In this document: positions 13,278 to 43,059 of the stretch, one piece after another
Layout: each line of letters begins with the position of its first letter
How positions within the stretch are numbered: the first letter of the stretch is position 1
Source of the DNA: Emticicia sp. BO119
GTDB taxonomy: Bacteria; Bacteroidota; Bacteroidia; Cytophagales; Spirosomataceae
NCBI RefSeq assembly: GCF_013912375.1
Contig: NZ_JACETV010000007.1
Location: 124,001 to 188,000 of the forward strand
Direction of reading: 5' to 3'
Length of the DNA: 64,000 nucleotides
Position numbers and translations under genes: made by a program
Notes under the pieces: model-generated
Seen by the model: the letters and a program-made list of their open reading frames with translations, nothing else
What the model was told of the DNA's origin: nothing
Database searches by the model: none

Positions 13278-16200
13278 TTAATATTTCCCTAATTTCCCTT
13301 TCAACCAATAATAGTTTCGTTTATAAATTACATTTTCTGGCACTTTATTAATAAGGTCTTCGTATATAGTAAATGCCTCAATAAAAATAATTTTAGACTC
13401 TTCATTTTTCCCTAAACGTTCCATTGTATCCCCATACCAAATTGAAGCCGTACAAAATCCATATTGGTATTCGACTAATTCAGGATTACTTTCAAATAGT
13501 GTTTTTGAAAGTTCGTAACATTTTTGATAATTTATTAAGGCTTCATTCATCAAATCTTTAGATTCATAAAGGTTTCCTAATCGCTCGTATACAATCCCTA
13601 AACCATTTTTGTAAGAAACCTGCTTGGGGTAGGTTTCATGTAATGATTTAAAAATTTCAAAGCATTTCTGAAAACAATCCAAAGCCTGATTCATTCTCTC
13701 TTCCGATTGATACAAATCTCCTAATCGCTCATATGCAACCCCCAAATTATTTTTGTAAGAAACCTGCTCAGGGTAACTTTCATACAATGAGCTCATGATT
13801 TCAAGGTATTTTTGAAAACAATCCAAAGCCTTATTCATTTTCCCTTCGGATTTGTACACATCTCCTAATTTGGAGTAGGCAATACCTAAATTATTTATGT
13901 AATAAACCTGCTCGGGATAGCTTTCATGAAATGAACTCATAATTTCAAGGTATTTTTGATAACAATTCAAAGCCTGACTCATTTTCCCTTCTGATTTATA
14001 CACATCTCCTAATCTGGAGTTTGCAATCCCCAGATTATTTTTGTAATAAACCTGTTCTGGATAGCTTTCATACAATGAACTCATGATTTCAAGGTACTTT
14101 TGATAACAATTCAAAGCCTGATTCATTTTCCCTTCTGATGTAAACACATCTCCCAATCGTTCGTATGCAATCCCCAAACCATTTTTGTAAGAAACCTGCT
14201 CAGGGTAACTTTCATACAATGAGCTCATGATTTCAAGGTATTTTTGAAAACAATCCAAAGCCTTATTCATTTTCCCTTCGGATGCGTACACATCTCCTAA
14301 TTTGGAGTAGGCAATACCTAAATTATTTATGTAATAAACCTGCTCGGGGTAGCTCTCATTCAATGATAGAGAAATTTCAAAATCTTTTTGATAACAATCC
14401 AAAGCCTGATTCATCCTCCCCTCCGATTTATACACATCTCCTAATAGACTTAAACTTTCAGCATAAAGGAATTGATAATCTTTAGTATTTCTTCTCTCTA
14501 ATATGCTATTCAATCTTTCAAACCATATTTTTGCTTTATCATCCCTTAAATATAGAATATAATGTCGCATTAGCCTTTTCGTCAGTAATAAAGTAGTGTA
14601 ATCTTCATTCAAGCAAAAGGTCAAAATACTTGAAGTATAATAAGCAAAAAGGTTTGTTTCATTAAAATTGGGGTTTTCACCATGCACTCTATGGCTCCAA
14701 CCTTCGTATGCCAATTCATCACTAAGGCTATTTGTCAATACTGATACATCATCCTGTAATCTTTTATCATTTTTTCTTCTTACTATCTCTTGTATTACGG
14801 GGCTTACTTTTACTTCTTTATCCATCTTGTTATAATCCACCCACCCTTTCAATGCCAGTTTTCTAAGTGCCTTTTCCCACCACGATACTTCCGGCAATAG
14901 AATATCCAAAGTTTTGATCTGAATGCCCTCAGGGGGCAAAACCGCCAGCATTGAACTTAGCTTTCGTTCTTCATCGCTCAGTTCTTCCAAATCATACAAT
15001 GCGGTGATAACCTCCTCCGGCTTTGCATTTTTATATTTTTGATAATATAGTCTTACGTCACTACTAAATTGCAATTGCAAAATGCCCTTCGTTTGAAGGT
15101 CATTGATTAAATCAGGTAAAGAATATTTATCACGTATGAGATTGGCCTCTCTTAATTGTTTAGCTATTAACTCCAATACTAAAGTATTACCATTTACTGC
15201 CAGATAAAGTTTTTCAAAATATACCTCTTCTTCTTTTGCTACTATCGGATAGTATTTTTGAAATAATTCCAAAGCGGTTTCTTTCGGCAAACTCCCGATT
15301 TTTTTAGTGTGAGCTTGTTCAAATTCAGTGATGCGGGTGGTTAAAAGGATATGAAAATTTGAACATCGGTTCAGCAGTTGGTAATAAGTATTAAGGTCTT
15401 CGTAGTCATTGGCATTATCTATTACAAGCAGGCAAGTCTTATTAAGGTTAAATAGCCTTGTGATGAGAATATCAAGGCGTTCTTTTTTAGAATAAAGTGG
15501 GTCAAACTCAATGTGTAGTTTTGGTGCCAATGCCAAAAGAGCATCGCCAATAGAAGTCTCTTTCAGCACCCATGCCATGTGGCTATAATGATTCTGAAAC
15601 TTATGGTAATAACGGGAAGCAAGAGAGGTCTTACCTACTCCACCTGTACCACTTACCAGCAACAGCAGATGATTTTCTTCAAACAAAATCCGTCGGATAT
15701 CTTCAATATCATCCTGACGACCGAGGAATACCTCAGGATGAAAAGGTGGCTCAGTCAGATGTCTTTCAATGATCGGTTTTGTTAAATTCAGTCTTTCAAT
15801 GATTTCGTTGCCTTTATCATCTACTTTATCAATAATTTCATTACCCTTTTCCTCTACTTTATGAATGATTCGTTTCTCCAACTCTCTGATTGCAGATAAG
15901 ACTTTAATAATAAAATTACTAAGGTCTTTTCTTAACTGTTGAATGTCTTTTTCAAGGCTGTTGCTAAGTGTTATTTGATTTTGAGTCAGAAGGTTATGTT
16001 CTAAAGCAAGAAGGGTTACTTTAATCTCATCAAGTTGTAGATGAGTGTCAGCATTTTGTTTGACAATCATCTCAAGAATGAACATCTGATATGCTTTATA
16101 GGCTCTTAGATTCCGTTCATCCTTCAATGCTTGTTTAAACGACAGGTCATAAATCCAGGGTAAGTTCTCTTCAAAATAGTTCTTCAGGTCCTGCCATTTT

Positions 16201-16739
16201 TCTTCATTTTCTATTTCTGGAAATTTGAAGAGTACATCTGTGAGTTTTGGAAGAGCAGACCACGACCCATCAGTCAACCATGCTGAGAGATTAAAGTCAA
16301 TTTTTTCATCCTCATTGAGCGATTCTTCAAATTCTTTTTGATATTCTTCCTCTCGCAGCAGGTTTTTTCTAAGCAGTTTGAAAGCCTGTTTAATTTCTTT
16401 AAATGGTCTGTCTATTATTTTTTGCCAATGTGTAAACTCAGTTTCATTTTTTAATTTGTCTATGTAGGCTGTTTCCACATGATGAAAGGCTTGCAATAGG
16501 GCATCCTTCATTAATTGGTTTAAGTCGTGGTTTAAACTGCCCGGATGAGGTTTTATCAGGAAATCTTTAAAACGCTCATAATCTACCCCCGATAAAAACT
16601 GATGAGCAAAATTGGGGGCAAGAGATTCGACAACTTTAATCGCAGCACCCGGAGGTAAAAAAGCGCCGCAGCAAGTCATAGCAATTCCTGACAGAGCAAT
16701 ACCAGCAATATTACTGAGTTCAGATTTTAACGGATTCAT
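13278..16739 (-). CDS. STAND NTPase (NB-ARC-like) with C-terminal TPR array
   Basis: A 1153-residue NLR-like protein. Residues 12-38 are small and hydrophobic; 1-230 resemble no domain I can name; 235-325 look coiled-coil, with an internal KGNEII repeat. The NTPase has Walker A GTGGVGKT (364-371), Walker B LLVID (437-441) and the sensor TTR (467-469), then a winged-helix-like region to about 660. Residues 767-1150 are eight consecutive 48-residue TPR units. This is the architecture of signal-transduction ATPases that detect a ligand with their repeats and activate an N-terminal effector; bacterial relatives include antiphage Avs-type proteins. It stands alone between ilvE and marR, with no obvious partner. 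A defence role is inference. Confidence 0.85.
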   Translation of the reverse strand: MNPLKSELSNIAGIALSGIAMTCCGAFLPPGAAIKVVESLAPNFAHQFLSGVDYERFKDFLIKPHPGSLNHDLNQLMKDALLQAFHHVETAYIDKLKNETEFTHWQKIIDRPFKEIKQAFKLLRKNLLREEEYQKEFEESLNEDEKIDFNLSAWLTDGSWSALPKLTDVLFKFPEIENEEKWQDLKNYFEENLPWIYDLSFKQALKDERNLRAYKAYQMFILEMIVKQNADTHLQLDEIKVTLLALEHNLLTQNQITLSNSLEKDIQQLRKDLSNFIIKVLSAIRELEKRIIHKVEEKGNEIIDKVDDKGNEIIERLNLTKPIIERHLTEPPFHPEVFLGRQDDIEDIRRILFEENHLLLLVSGTGGVGKTSLASRYYHKFQNHYSHMAWVLKETSIGDALLALAPKLHIEFDPLYSKKERLDILITRLFNLNKTCLLVIDNANDYEDLNTYYQLLNRCSNFHILLTTRITEFEQAHTKKIGSLPKETALELFQKYYPIVAKEEEVYFEKLYLAVNGNTLVLELIAKQLREANLIRDKYSLPDLINDLQTKGILQLQFSSDVRLYYQKYKNAKPEEVITALYDLEELSDEERKLSSMLAVLPPEGIQIKTLDILLPEVSWWEKALRKLALKGWVDYNKMDKEVKVSPVIQEIVRRKNDKRLQDDVSVLTNSLSDELAYEGWSHRVHGENPNFNETNLFAYYTSSILTFCLNEDYTTLLLTKRLMRHYILYLRDDKAKIWFERLNSILERRNTKDYQFLYAESLSLLGDVYKSEGRMNQALDCYQKDFEISLSLNESYPEQVYYINNLGIAYSKLGDVYASEGKMNKALDCFQKYLEIMSSLYESYPEQVSYKNGLGIAYERLGDVFTSEGKMNQALNCYQKYLEIMSSLYESYPEQVYYKNNLGIANSRLGDVYKSEGKMSQALNCYQKYLEIMSSFHESYPEQVYYINNLGIAYSKLGDVYKSEGKMNKALDCFQKYLEIMSSLYESYPEQVSYKNNLGVAYERLGDLYQSEERMNQALDCFQKCFEIFKSLHETYPKQVSYKNGLGIVYERLGNLYESKDLMNEALINYQKCYELSKTLFESNPELVEYQYGFCTASIWYGDTMERLGKNEESKIIFIEAFTIYEDLINKVPENVIYKRNYYWLKGKLGKY
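13290..14441 (-). repeat. Eight tandem 144-bp TPR-coding units
   Basis: The LGD/LGN-start motif recurs at residues 767, 815, 863, 911, 959, 1007, 1055 and 1103, always exactly 48 residues apart. At DNA level the region from 13801 is nearly identical over more than 100 bp to that from 14233, which is 432 bp or three units away. This points to recent internal duplication or gene conversion. Confidence 0.9.
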
Positions 16740-17514: not shown

Positions 17515-17542
17515 AAAGGTCTGACCATTTGGTCAGACCTTT
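17515..17542. terminator. Shared terminator of marR and uvrA
   Basis: Perfect 12-bp stem AAAGGTCTGACC / GGTCAGACCTTT with an ATTT loop, followed by a T run on the plus strand. The uvrA stop codon lies inside the hairpin. Confidence 0.85.
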
Positions 17543-20500
17543 ATTTTTTCTTTCAGAAACTCTGCTGTATAGTTATTTTCGAGTTTTACCATATCTTCGG
17601 GTGTGCCTTCAAAAGTCACATAGCCACCTTTCTCTCCACCTTCCGGCCCTAAATCAATAATCCAGTCGGCCGATTTAATGATTTCCATATTATGTTCAAT
17701 GATAATTACTGAATCGCCCTGGTCAACTAAGGCATTGATGGCTTTCAACAATTTCTTGATGTCATGGAAATGTAATCCGGTAGTAGGTTCGTCAAATACA
17801 AATAAGGTTTTCCCTTTATCGGCATTGCCTTTGCTTAAGAAGAAAGCCAGTTTTACACGCTGCGCTTCTCCACCAGACAATGTACTTGACGATTGTCCCA
17901 GGCCAATATAACCAAGACCCACATCTTGCAGCGGTTGTAATTTATCTGCCAGTTTCGGGTCGCTTTCTTTGAAGAAATCTATCGCTTCATCAACCGTCAT
18001 GGCCAGAATATCGGCTATGTCCTTGTCTTTATATTTTACCTCCAGAATCTCCTGTTTGAAGCGCTTGCCACCACAACTCTCACATTTCAGGCGTACATCG
18101 GCCATAAATTGCATCTCTATGGTCTGTTCCCCTTCACCCTGACAGGCTTCACAACGCCCCCCATCTACGTTGAATGAGAAGAAAGCAGGTTTATAATCGC
18201 GGGCTTTTGATAATTGCTGGTCAGCCATCAGTTGCCTGATATAATCATAAGCCTTGATATAAGTTACAGGATTAGAACGGGACGATTTACCAATTGGATT
18301 CTGGTCTACCATCTCAATCTGGGTGATTCTATCTAAAGAGCCTGTTAAATCACTATATTTTCCGGCCTCTTCGCTGTATTCTCCTTTTAATCTCGCAATA
18401 GCCGGAAATAAGATTTTTCTTACTAAAGTCGATTTTCCCGAACCACTTACGCCTGTAACAACATTCAATACACCTATCGGGAATTTTACATCTACTTCTT
18501 TCAGGTTATTCTCACGAGCACCTTTGATTTCAATGAAATCGGCAGGTTTTCTTCTTTGTGTGGGTACAGGTACCTGATCTTCGCCCGTCAAGAAGCGGAT
18601 AGTGTGGCTGAGAACCCCACCCCAGCCCTCCCCAACAGTGGGGAGGGAGTTTGAAGAAGAAATATTTTCTTCTTCAACTACAGTTTTAAAATCTGGTGTT
18701 TCTTCGAGTTTATTTTTGATTTGGTCTAATACACCATTTATATTTTCAAAGACCTCCTTGTTTGAAAATCTTAATACCTCGAAACCACTACCATTCAAGA
18801 ATTTGGTTCTTGCTTTATCATACTCTACAAAATTCTCGTGAATATCGCCATCTACTTCAATTACTAGATTCTTTTCGAGACATATAAAATCTGTAATAAA
18901 GGTTTCTATTGTATGCTGTCTTCTGAATTTATATCCCAACTTTTCTTTTCTTAGACCTTCCCAAAGTATTTTTTCTGCTTCTGTCTGATTTTTGCGATTT
19001 TCTTTGGCAAAGTTTTTAAGAACCTCCCAATCTTTAGGATTAGTATGGTAGTAAGGTTCGGCATAGATATGACTCCCTCTTTTAACAACTTCTCCATCGG
19101 CCTTAATAAAAGTAACTTCGCTAGAAGTTATATCTCCCTCCCCACTGTTGGGGAGGGGTAGGGGTGGGGTTGTTTTCAATTTCATAATATCCTCCCAATT
19201 CCCCTGAAAAATCAGACGGCCGCCTAAAGTTCCTGCTTCCGGGCCAATGTCAACAATTTCATCGGCAGCCATCATTACCTCCTCCTCATGCTCTACCACT
19301 ACCACACTATTGCCTAAATCTCTTAGTGATTCTAATACACTCACTAAACGGCGGGTATCTCTTGGGTGCAGCCCGATGCTTGGCTCATCAAGAATATACA
19401 TAGACCCCACTAATGCACTACCTAAAGATGTTGCTAATTTGATACGCTGAAACTCTCCGCCTGATAAGGTAGAAGTTAAGCGGTTCAAAGTTAAATAGCC
19501 TAAACCTACCCGCTCCATAAAATCAAGACGGCTGTTAATTTCTATCAGGATTCGTTTAGAAATACCTTGTTGGTATTCAGGCAATTCTAATTCTCTGAAA
19601 AATTGTGCTACATCAGAAAGCGGCATCAGTACGATATCTGTAATAGAAACCCCGCCGACTTTAACATAAGAAGCGTCTTTACGCAAACGAGAACCCCGGC
19701 AGTCAGGGCAGTCTGTACGACCACGATAGCGGGAGAGCATTACTCTATACTGTACTTTATGAACCTGACTTTCAATGTCTGCAAAGAAGGCATTCAAGCC
19801 TTGAAAATAAGAGTTTCCGGTCCAGAGCAAGTCTTTTTGCTCTTGCGTCAGATCACGGTAGGCTCTATGAATCGGGAAGTCAAACCGAATCCCGTTTCTT
19901 AACAGAGGTGCAACCCACTCACTCATGCGTTCGGTTCGCCAGGGAGCTATAGCCCCTTCAAAGACTGAAAGGTTTTTATCAGGAATCACCAGTTCAGGGT
20001 CAATGCCTAATATCTTTCCGAAGCCTTCGCAACGTTTACAAGCTCCATAAGGGTTATTGAATGTAAACAGGTTTACACTGGGTTCCTCAAAACTGAGCCC
20101 ATCTAATTCGAATTTATCAGAGAAAGTCCGCTTTTCTATACCAACCACGTCAACAATACATTCTCCCTCTCCTTCAAAAAATGCTGTCTGCACCGAATCC
20201 GAAAAACGGAATTGGGTGTCTTCATCGTTGTGTTTAACCGTATTTCTATCAATCAGAATCTCAATTCGGTGTTGCTTTTCATCAATTATATAATCATCTT
20301 CTACTATCTCTTCAATCTGCTTGATTTCTCCATCAATCAACACACGGGTATATCCTTTTTGTAATAAAAGGTCTAATTCTTTCTTGATTTTGCGATTATC
20401 TTTAATTTTTAATGGTGTAAGCACCATTATTCTTGTGCCTTCTGCGTGTGAGAGTATAAAGTTCACGACATCAGTAACTGTATCTTTTTTTACCTCTCGC

Positions 20501-20928
20501 CCTGTTACAGGCGAGTAAGTAATACCGATACGGGCAAACAGAAGTTTGAGGTAATCGTAGATTTCGGTAGTAGTACCAACCGTTGAGCGAGGGTTTTTAG
20601 TAGCTACTTTCTGTTCAATGGCTATGGCAGGCGAAACTCCCTTGATATATTCTACGTCGGGCTTCTCCATACGCCCTAAAAACTGACGGGCATAAGAGCT
20701 TAAACTTTCGACATACATCCGTTGTCCTTCAGCAAAAAGGGTATCAAAAGCCAACGATGATTTCCCACTTCCTGAAAGCCCCGTAACTACTACTAACTTG
20801 TTGCGTGGAATAGCAACATCTATATTTTTTAAATTATTTACTTTGGCACCTTTGATGATGATGAAGTGCTTAGGATCAAGGCCATCAACATCAGGATACT
20901 TTATAAAGCTACGTGAAGAATTTTCCAT
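17533..20928 (-). CDS. uvrA: Excinuclease ABC subunit A, with embedded DUF559 domain
   Basis: UvrA is the damage-recognising ABC ATPase of nucleotide excision repair. It has Walker A motifs GLSGSGKSS (50-58) and GVSGSGKST (826-834), ABC signatures LSGGE (488-492 and 1017-1021), and zinc-finger Cys pairs (297/300 with 407/410; 926/929 with 949/952). The length, 1131 residues, is about 190 more than usual. Residues 586-772 are foreign: Pro/Gly-rich ends translated from inverted repeats around a DUF559 nuclease-like domain. They sit between IMKLK and [10 protein letters not shown], in the linker before the second ATPase domain. Without them the protein would be 944 residues, close to E. coli's 940. 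Frame is kept, so UvrA is probably made and may tolerate the surface insertion. Confidence 0.95.
18613..19171 (-). mobile_element. Palindrome-bounded DUF559 (Vsr-like endonuclease) element inside uvrA
   Basis: A 559-bp segment is bounded by inverted repeats of 35 bp (18613-18647) and 36 bp (19136-19171), which are nearly identical. Each repeat is itself a hairpin (CCCTCCCC-aacagt-GGGGAGGG). Between them, in the uvrA frame, is a DUF559-type domain (protein residues about 613-742): [15 protein letters not shown], then [16 protein letters not shown] and [11 protein letters not shown], then the [19 protein letters not shown] end. The putative catalytic residues of the Vsr/PD-(D/E)xK-like fold (Asp in TDF, Glu in IEVDG) and the conserved His are present. 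There is no transposase and no clear target duplication. I infer a mobile unit whose ends are translatable and frame-neutral. Confidence 0.85.
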
Positions 20929-43012: not shown

Positions 43013-43059
43013 ACCCCATCCCAGCCTTCCCCACTGTTGGGGAAGGCTGGGGTGTGGTT
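43013..43059. repeat. Solo GC-rich palindromic element, same family as the uvrA inserts
   Basis: Arms CCAGCCTTCCCC (43021-43032) and GGGGAAGGCTGG (43039-43050) around ACTGTT, extended on both sides by less perfect pairing to about 20 bp per arm. The sequence parallels the ends of the DUF559 element in uvrA (AACCCCACCCC…CCCTCCCCAACAGT). It fills the gap between convergent genes and could act as a terminator. Confidence 0.8.

Follow-up and report, generated by a model that had tools for sequence, protein, structure and literature searches.

A palindrome-ended DUF559 cassette translated within UvrA of Emticicia sp. BO119, and a probable class of unspliced in-frame elements in the Bacteroidota

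How does a nuclease-like domain flanked by inverted repeats come to lie, in frame, in the middle of UvrA? The question is raised by a window of 64,000 nucleotides (the whole stretch of DNA analysed here: contig NZ_JACETV010000007.1 of Emticicia sp. BO119, positions 124,001 to 188,000), in which the uvrA gene carries a 559-bp element encoding a DUF559 domain. We consider it probable that a palindrome-ended DUF559 cassette entered the UvrA linker in frame, and that it represents a class spread across the Bacteroidota which is translated with its hosts, many of them essential, and is not spliced out. The parts of the locus, all on the minus strand, are as follows.

17533..20928, minus strand: uvrA reading frame, 1131 aa, split in frame by the element
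19172..20928, minus strand: N-terminal half of UvrA
18613..19171, minus strand: complete element from arm to arm, 559 bp, read as 186 residues ending in VGEGWGGV
19134..19171, minus strand: 5′ (coding-strand) arm, consisting of the outer AACCCCACCCC and the hairpin CCCTCCCCAACAGTGGGGAGGG
18706..19020, minus strand: DUF559 nuclease-fold domain, UvrA residues 637-741, with the residues E..Q-H..D..E-x-D-G..H
18613..18649, minus strand: 3′ arm, an inverted copy of the 5′ arm, ending in GGGGTGGGGTT
17533..18612, minus strand: C-terminal half of UvrA

From start to stop, uvrA is a single open frame that includes the element, and Pfam places DUF559 (PF04480, 7.7e-34) within the UvrA match at a score of 116.3 bits, against a curated family cut-off of 20.6. 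The inverted-repeat arms extend over 35 nt (18615-18649 and 19134-19168), are 89% complementary, and are spaced 484 nt apart; their outer 21-nt layer (18613-18633 and 19151-19171) pairs at 81%, and each arm contains one hairpin (18626-18647 and 19136-19157). An initial annotation of this locus had described just such a unit, with hairpin-bearing inverted-repeat ends, an in-frame position in the UvrA linker, and nuclease motifs still present, and all of this stands; the frame is indeed kept, but not with the net gain of 187 codons then given, since 559 bp is 186 codons plus one nucleotide and no multiple of three, and the gain is 184 codons when measured against two close congeners, whose linker has 8 residues between WED[IV] and SHTI. 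Stop codons number 15, 0, 12, 7, 6, and 14 in the six frames of the element, and the sole open frame is that of uvrA; the element is therefore not freely translatable, because both orientation and frame must fit. The 186-residue insert contains no methionine, so that the nuclease of the window has no ATG of its own, and its only GTG or TTG codons are those for insert residues 77 and 124. This is the only DUF559 copy in the Emticicia sp. BO119 genome. The same genome encodes a second, uninterrupted UvrA paralogue (G000:C3:66754-69549, 46-54% identical), which may partly back up the interrupted gene.

Is the insertion a fixture of this gene? The genus sample comprises 11 genomes, Emticicia sp. 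BO119 among them, and 9 of the 10 congeners could be assessed at the uvrA site, the gene of the tenth (G008) being interrupted by a contig end. When the two uvrA flanks were joined and used as a query, the match was in one piece in 9 of the 10 congeners and in two pieces in Emticicia sp. BO119, and where both sides of a congener UvrA were found the matches end at query positions 584-597 and restart at 770-776. DUF559 is missing from uvrA in all 9 assessable congeners, 8 of which have an unoccupied site (the stretch between WED[IV] and SHTI reads KKTEKAEG in G001 and KKAEKAGG in G007) while the ninth, G005, retains a lone palindrome arm without DUF559; among the sequences read, the site is thus found empty, with a single arm, or, in the window, loaded. 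In a second genus of 13 genomes, the uvrA match is in two pieces in G161 and G162 and in one piece in the other 11, and the strong DUF559 matches of 222 genomes of the family include 3 uvrA locations. Mobility, which the initial annotation had raised as a condition, is supported on two counts: the insertion is not common to relatives, and its repeat occurs elsewhere, with 35 inverted-repeat matches in the Emticicia sp. BO119 genome (at most 2 mismatches, the element's own two arms included) and none for a control pattern.

Nor is uvrA the only host. From the 222 family genomes we took 60 regions with DUF559 matches above 85 bits, namely all 34 with frames of at least 200 aa outside the Emticicia sp. 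BO119 genome and 26 with shorter frames; weaker family matches in long frames were left out, except for the helicase-like L011. In congeners and the wider family DUF559 frequently lies within long frames, and the 60 regions together with the window contain 30 in-frame copies within host genes: uvrA (3), methylmalonyl-CoA mutase (3), metH (5, at two sites), ileS (6), the fused CoA-transferase gene scoAB (4), mnmE (6), and the gene for a PDDEXK_1 protein (3). Three more copies are joined to the start of an HMG-CoA lyase or a glycosidase-like protein. For UvrA, the mutase, MetH, IleRS, the CoA-transferase, MnmE, the PDDEXK_1 protein, and HMG-CoA lyase, Pfam bore out the host assignment in the one example scanned of each; the glycosidase-like host gave DUF559 alone.

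Beyond the family, DUF559 was found at 1e-15 in 162 of 395 genomes sampled from the phylum, and 40 long-frame loci among the matches listed were examined; a scan of named genomes took the best 80 of at least 578 matches, 69 of which lie in frames of at least 300 aa. Pooled, these surveys yield 130 internal in-frame entries, with more than 100 aa before and more than 60 aa after the DUF559 domain (L091 and L252 being one and the same Larkinella rosea locus); L100 and 12 other long-frame copies were excluded. L100 (G076:C3:135663-136643), an HSDR_N protein with a C-terminal DUF559 followed by two tandem DUF559 pieces, is apparently a different arrangement. By their site motifs, 98 of the 130 entries fall at 15 sites and 32 elsewhere: 30 are at a site in the LeuRS editing domain, 13 in the B12 linker of MetH, 12 in RecG, 9 at two sites in IleRS, 6 in MnmE, 5 at a second LeuRS site, 5 in IcmF, 4 in MCM, 4 in the CoA-transferase, 3 in UvrA, 2 each at a second MetH site, in the PDDEXK_1 protein, and in MetRS, and 1 in RecJ. 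These counts are not host frequencies, because they were drawn from the matches listed and selected for long frames. A Pfam scan of 18 further proteins found hosts that include RecJ, MetRS, acetyl-CoA synthetase, Ham1, MazG, an ABC-F type ATPase, UDP-GlcNAc epimerase, HsdR, and HsdM. A special link to DNA repair, as UvrA might suggest, is not supported, as tRNA synthetases and B12 enzymes are the commonest hosts, with RecG and a few other repair proteins also represented; the suggestion that the element hides in coding DNA by being translatable gains much from the 130 entries read in frame in uvrA and other genes. In the window copy, only one frame in six is open.

In all six genomes searched for LeuRS at 1e-12 (Gillisia mitskevichiae, Cellulophaga baltica, Gillisia marina, Pedobacter sp. 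Leaf194, a Maribacter entry labelled uncultured, and Daejeonella sp. H1SJ63), no LeuRS gene turned up besides the one with the insert, in records whose completeness is unstated; in Gillisia marina, one match crosses one TAG. Since it is the only LeuRS found, either the enzyme works with the insert or the insert is removed afterwards. Four further observations on hosts may be recorded. A single metH (L078, 3709-8643) has DUF559 insertions at two sites, each from a different lineage; two contigs labelled Anaerolineae (L277 and L293) have DUF559 in longer frames, representing either transfer beyond the Bacteroidota or misbinning; two contigs of one genome (G002:C135 and G002:C136) both match the N-side ileS flank, at 93% and 91% to the query, and are perhaps two alleles or strains; and an in-frame ATG lies near the domain start in 69 of the 130 internal entries compared with 38 of 39 stand-alone copies, so that release of a free nuclease from an internal ATG, which the methionine-free window insert also contradicts, was rejected as a general rule.

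Same-site derivatives that lack DUF559 are best seen in mnmE of one genus (13 genomes), where the gene is loaded with DUF559 in G165, G172, G169, and G168; contains an in-frame doublet without DUF559 in G171 and G160; and retains short in-frame scars of the outer arms in G161 and G162, eroded in G167. G163, G164, and G166 gave a one-piece match whose sequence was not read, and G170 was not listed. In G165 the nuclease sits between two doublets of the same orientation, recombination between which would leave one doublet. The CoA-transferase site likewise occurs in loaded, doublet (G167), and single-arm states, and in-frame doublets or arms without DUF559 are thus known from three genes, namely this one, mnmE, and uvrA. 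The series fits gain followed by loss, the single steps being presumed to run in that direction.

The arms themselves are characteristic. Of 142 long-frame DUF559 copies, 90 have a GC-rich hairpin within 250 bp, as have 18 of 39 stand-alone copies, against a background of 8 in 374 windows of 260 bp. The two arms of an element match one another, their centres being identical in 38 of 100 elements that have hairpins at both ends, compared with 1.9% for shuffled partners. By eye, arm classes track DUF559 lineages: short CCCCC/GGGGG arms belong to the CoA-transferase copies and to several from the MetH B12 linker, and CCCTCYCC/GGRGAGGG-like arms to most of the remainder. We also observed additional short in-frame palindrome-like peptides (PPLGAGG and PPLGARG) beside the DUF559 element in ileS of G002 (L076); arms that have expanded into tandem repeats read in frame, such as SNPDPSPEERGENNSHKEGQ in ileS (L099, L104, and L249), the palindromes seeming to expand linkers further; and small GC-rich palindromes, for example GGACGGCCCCGTCC, inserted within hairpin arms (L315, L094, and L308). 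Within the window the hairpin pattern occurs 3 times (at most 3 mismatches) against 0.13 expected, and one copy stands apart from the element.

43025..43046, plus strand: further copy of the element's hairpin family, between two long frames and without DUF559

Also in the window, at 13278-16739, is a 1153-aa protein which combines an NTPase-like part with several near-identical C-terminal repeats and, by eye, is STAND/TPR-like.

Has the cassette moved between genes and species? A tree of 102 DUF559 domains carries 28 location labels, stand-alone being counted as one label (the trees contain 28 stand-alone copies, all from the family). The labels require 33 changes on the tree, where the minimum is 27 and the shuffled mean 71.4, and none of 200 shuffles was as low; lineages have therefore mostly held to one site, yet have switched site many times. 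Nested placements hint at jumps (metH1 within mcm, from one genome; the CoA-transferase and M23 copies within metH2), and the uvrA copy of the window lies next to the copy from a congener's ileS (89/82 and 88/85). Independent uvrA insertions in two genera were considered and rejected, as the approximately unbiased (AU) test allows one uvrA clade. Phages and plasmids were likewise rejected as main carriers of close relatives, which occur in 3 of 50,697 phage and 39 of 72,556 plasmid records. Presence at recurrent sites is patchy even within one genus, as in homing elements. Insert and host were compared for synonymous divergence in 25 pairs that share a site and have usable host divergence; the pairs are not mutually independent and come from the same-site sets of two surveys, together with 10 recG and 7 leuS loci from the named scan. 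In two of them the insert is far less diverged than its host (uvrA of G161 and G162, 0.12 versus 0.45; recG of two Tenacibaculum species, 0.20 versus 0.57), and in these pairs the insert was probably transferred recently into a site that already existed. Simple comparison of insert and host pair identity was uninformative. From these sequence patterns we strongly infer movement both between genes and between species.

The insert shares its fold and aligned sequence with I-Bth0305I (PDB 3r3p) and Vsr, which places it in the Vsr/EDxHD group; its nuclease residues are fully conserved, and the DUF559 domain is under purifying selection. A homing cycle fits this anatomy best, to judge by the homing-endonuclease fold, the site-bound lineages, the patchiness, and the scars. 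We propose that i) the host-fused nuclease, its activity and its cutting of empty sites being predictions, would cut an unoccupied allele or a bare palindrome; ii) repair would then copy the cassette in, amounting to homing without splicing; iii) the palindromic arms, in a role that is likewise predicted, would serve as cassette ends or as the sequence recognised; iv) later recombination between or within the arms would delete the nuclease and leave first an in-frame doublet and later a scar, states of the kind observed in mnmE and the CoA-transferase gene; and v) an essential host frame would shield the nuclease frame from decay by stops and frameshifts. No splicing would be needed, because host enzymes would tolerate the insert as a domain in a linker, and the whole suggests a selfish element that survives through translation instead of being spliced out. 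With somewhat less assurance we lean toward a phylum-wide selfish class that lives by translation, its cassettes homing into the linkers of essential enzymes, its arms doubling as Pro/Gly-rich linker peptide, and its decay leaving in-frame scars; the nuclease frame would be kept open because a frameshift or stop in an essential host would kill the cell, and, if so, decay scars would lengthen the linkers of core proteins.

Several results weigh against a homing cassette of this kind. Strong hairpins are not universal around DUF559, as the counts within 250 bp show, and hairpin abundance is only loosely tied to the domain: G007 has 9 hairpins and no DUF559, and in a hand count of the family DUF559 is present in 17 of 25 genomes with hairpins and in 78 of 197 others, a weak association. 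AU tests leave a single clade unrejected for uvrA (p 0.41), ileS (0.31), mcm (0.31), metH2 (0.068), and metH1 (0.077), and for this reason we rely on no single jump. In 4 of the 25 pairs the divergence of the insert exceeds that of its host at p < 0.002 (which weaker codon bias alone could explain); the remaining 19, two of which have a more diverged insert at p < 0.05, show no difference at that level, as would be expected under vertical descent too. Finally, the flanks of the two pairs with young inserts have no co-conversion gradient (circular-shift p 0.54 and 0.44); such a gradient, at first suspected, was rejected, being non-significant in all 8 pairs tested.

The main rival to homing is transposition driven by the hairpin ends, which would be the mobile signal for a transposase acting in trans (RAYT/IS200-like or other) or for DUF559 itself; the cassette would land in many places, selection keeping those copies in essential genes that happen to lie in frame in a linker. 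It draws support from geneless doublets of about 85-110 bp in Emticicia sp. BO119, which have similar arms and resemble REPINs or miniature inverted-repeat transposable elements (MITEs). Of 20 repeat regions examined in this genome, 18 fall outside frames of at least 150 aa; of the other two, L153 is close to the beginning of a stop-to-stop frame, and L134 overlaps opposite-strand frames of 213 and 224 aa. Paired hairpins also surround 15 of the 39 stand-alone DUF559 genes. The genome has two Y1 transposase matches, but neither has element hairpins within 1.5 kb; DUF559 lineages bound to particular targets would be unexpected under random transposition; and no target-site duplication was recognised by eye at uvrA. 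We regard transposition of this kind as possible though rather unlikely.

Still less probable, in our estimation, is that DUF559 was recruited because it serves the cell, whether as a tethered nuclease for defence or repair or as a regulatory domain, and is protected from loss by its essential host. Purifying selection and the intact nuclease residues are what such recruitment predicts, and the hosts include several restriction enzymes or recombination proteins; a homing cycle, however, would also preserve the same residues, tRNA synthetases, MetH, CoA mutases, MnmE, and acetyl-CoA synthetase have no function in common, presence is patchy within a genus, and the doublets and scars without DUF559 suggest that the domain is readily lost.

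An atypical intein or self-splicing intron, leaving a mature host protein without the insert, would suit the conserved host genes, the patchy distribution, and a nuclease related to an intron-encoded homing endonuclease, but we think it very improbable. Pfam found no Hint family in the window protein (at 1e-3), where the initial annotation had also seen no sign of an intein, nor in 27 further DUF559-bearing proteins (at 1e-8 or 1e-10 only); Rfam gave three matches in window 18300-19500, all below the gathering score and none an intron, and at 15 loci a single match at gathering score, a SAM riboswitch in a metH locus. Moreover, the frame is open through the insert, and its Pro/Gly-rich palindromic ends vary between copies. 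An assembly or binning artefact can be dismissed for practical purposes: many carriers are metagenome-assembled genomes, and the two Anaerolineae contigs are possibly misbinned, but named isolates (Larkinella rosea, Gillisia mitskevichiae DSM 19839, Cellulophaga baltica DSM 24729, Pedobacter sp. Leaf194, and Flavobacterium difficile among them) carry the insert, and the same site is occupied in independent species.

If the translated homing cassette is real, splicing would prove dispensable to a homing-like element provided that the host protein accepts an additional domain; the class would explain the odd nuclease-containing tRNA synthetases, MetH, RecG, and UvrA in the databases; and it would offer natural sites for domain insertion and possibly new site-specific nucleases. 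To our knowledge, the route by which coding palindromes, such as those of Rickettsia, enter genes has been an open question since their discovery, and because the present class carries a candidate enzyme inside the palindrome, that question can now be tested. In the open-access literature we found no DUF559 paper on such elements in the portions of text available, and nothing on DUF559 with an inverted repeat; searches, mainly of open-access sources, for in-frame homing insertions, Bacteroidetes palindromes, LeuRS insertions, and selfish in-frame insertions likewise returned no description.

How, then, does the element compare with known systems? Repetitive extragenic palindromes (REPs) and REPINs, which go with REP-associated tyrosine transposases (RAYTs), and MITEs form GC-rich hairpin doublets with geneless intergenic copies, as do the doublets of Emticicia sp. 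BO119; unlike REPINs, no Y1 transposase with the element's ends was seen in that genome, and the enclosed nuclease has a different fold. I-Bth0305I is named in the PDB as a mobile intron protein, whereas no intron was found around the DUF559 element. As described in the accessible part of one report, Rickettsia palindromic elements (RPEs) and the coding palindromes of Wolbachia are short, lie in frame in conserved genes, are translated, and are also intergenic, RPEs being 105-146 bp long with no encoded enzyme described (PMC2229807). To go by that description, palindromes read in frame in conserved genes recur here in mnmE, the CoA-transferase gene, and uvrA, but those of the DUF559 element enclose a conserved nuclease, with hosts across a phylum and target-bound lineages. 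The ShiLan domain of phage DNA methylases is, in the sections available, stop-free in the host frame with neither intein nor intron identifiable, is inherited like a homing element, and is predicted to be retained in the protein (PMC11855218); its HNH nuclease is out of frame and its host a phage methylase, whereas DUF559 is in the frame of many bacterial housekeeping genes. The WHO elements of Torulaspora and Lachancea yeasts home in intein-like fashion without protein splicing while joined to a housekeeping gene, with a backbone bound to one target and transpositions elsewhere; according to the excerpts at hand, they replace the 3′ end of FBA1, and their genes encode intein-zinc finger fusion proteins (PMC7282813). 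The DUF559 insert is instead internal, with both host halves in one protein, a Vsr/EDxHD fold, and palindromic arms, and on this partial account of WHO elements we do not class it with them. As far as the available parts of these reports extend, none of RPE, WHO, and ShiLan unites a nuclease in the host frame with palindromic arms and a wide set of housekeeping hosts. In-frame palindromes and homing without splicing are each already known; what seems new is their combination.
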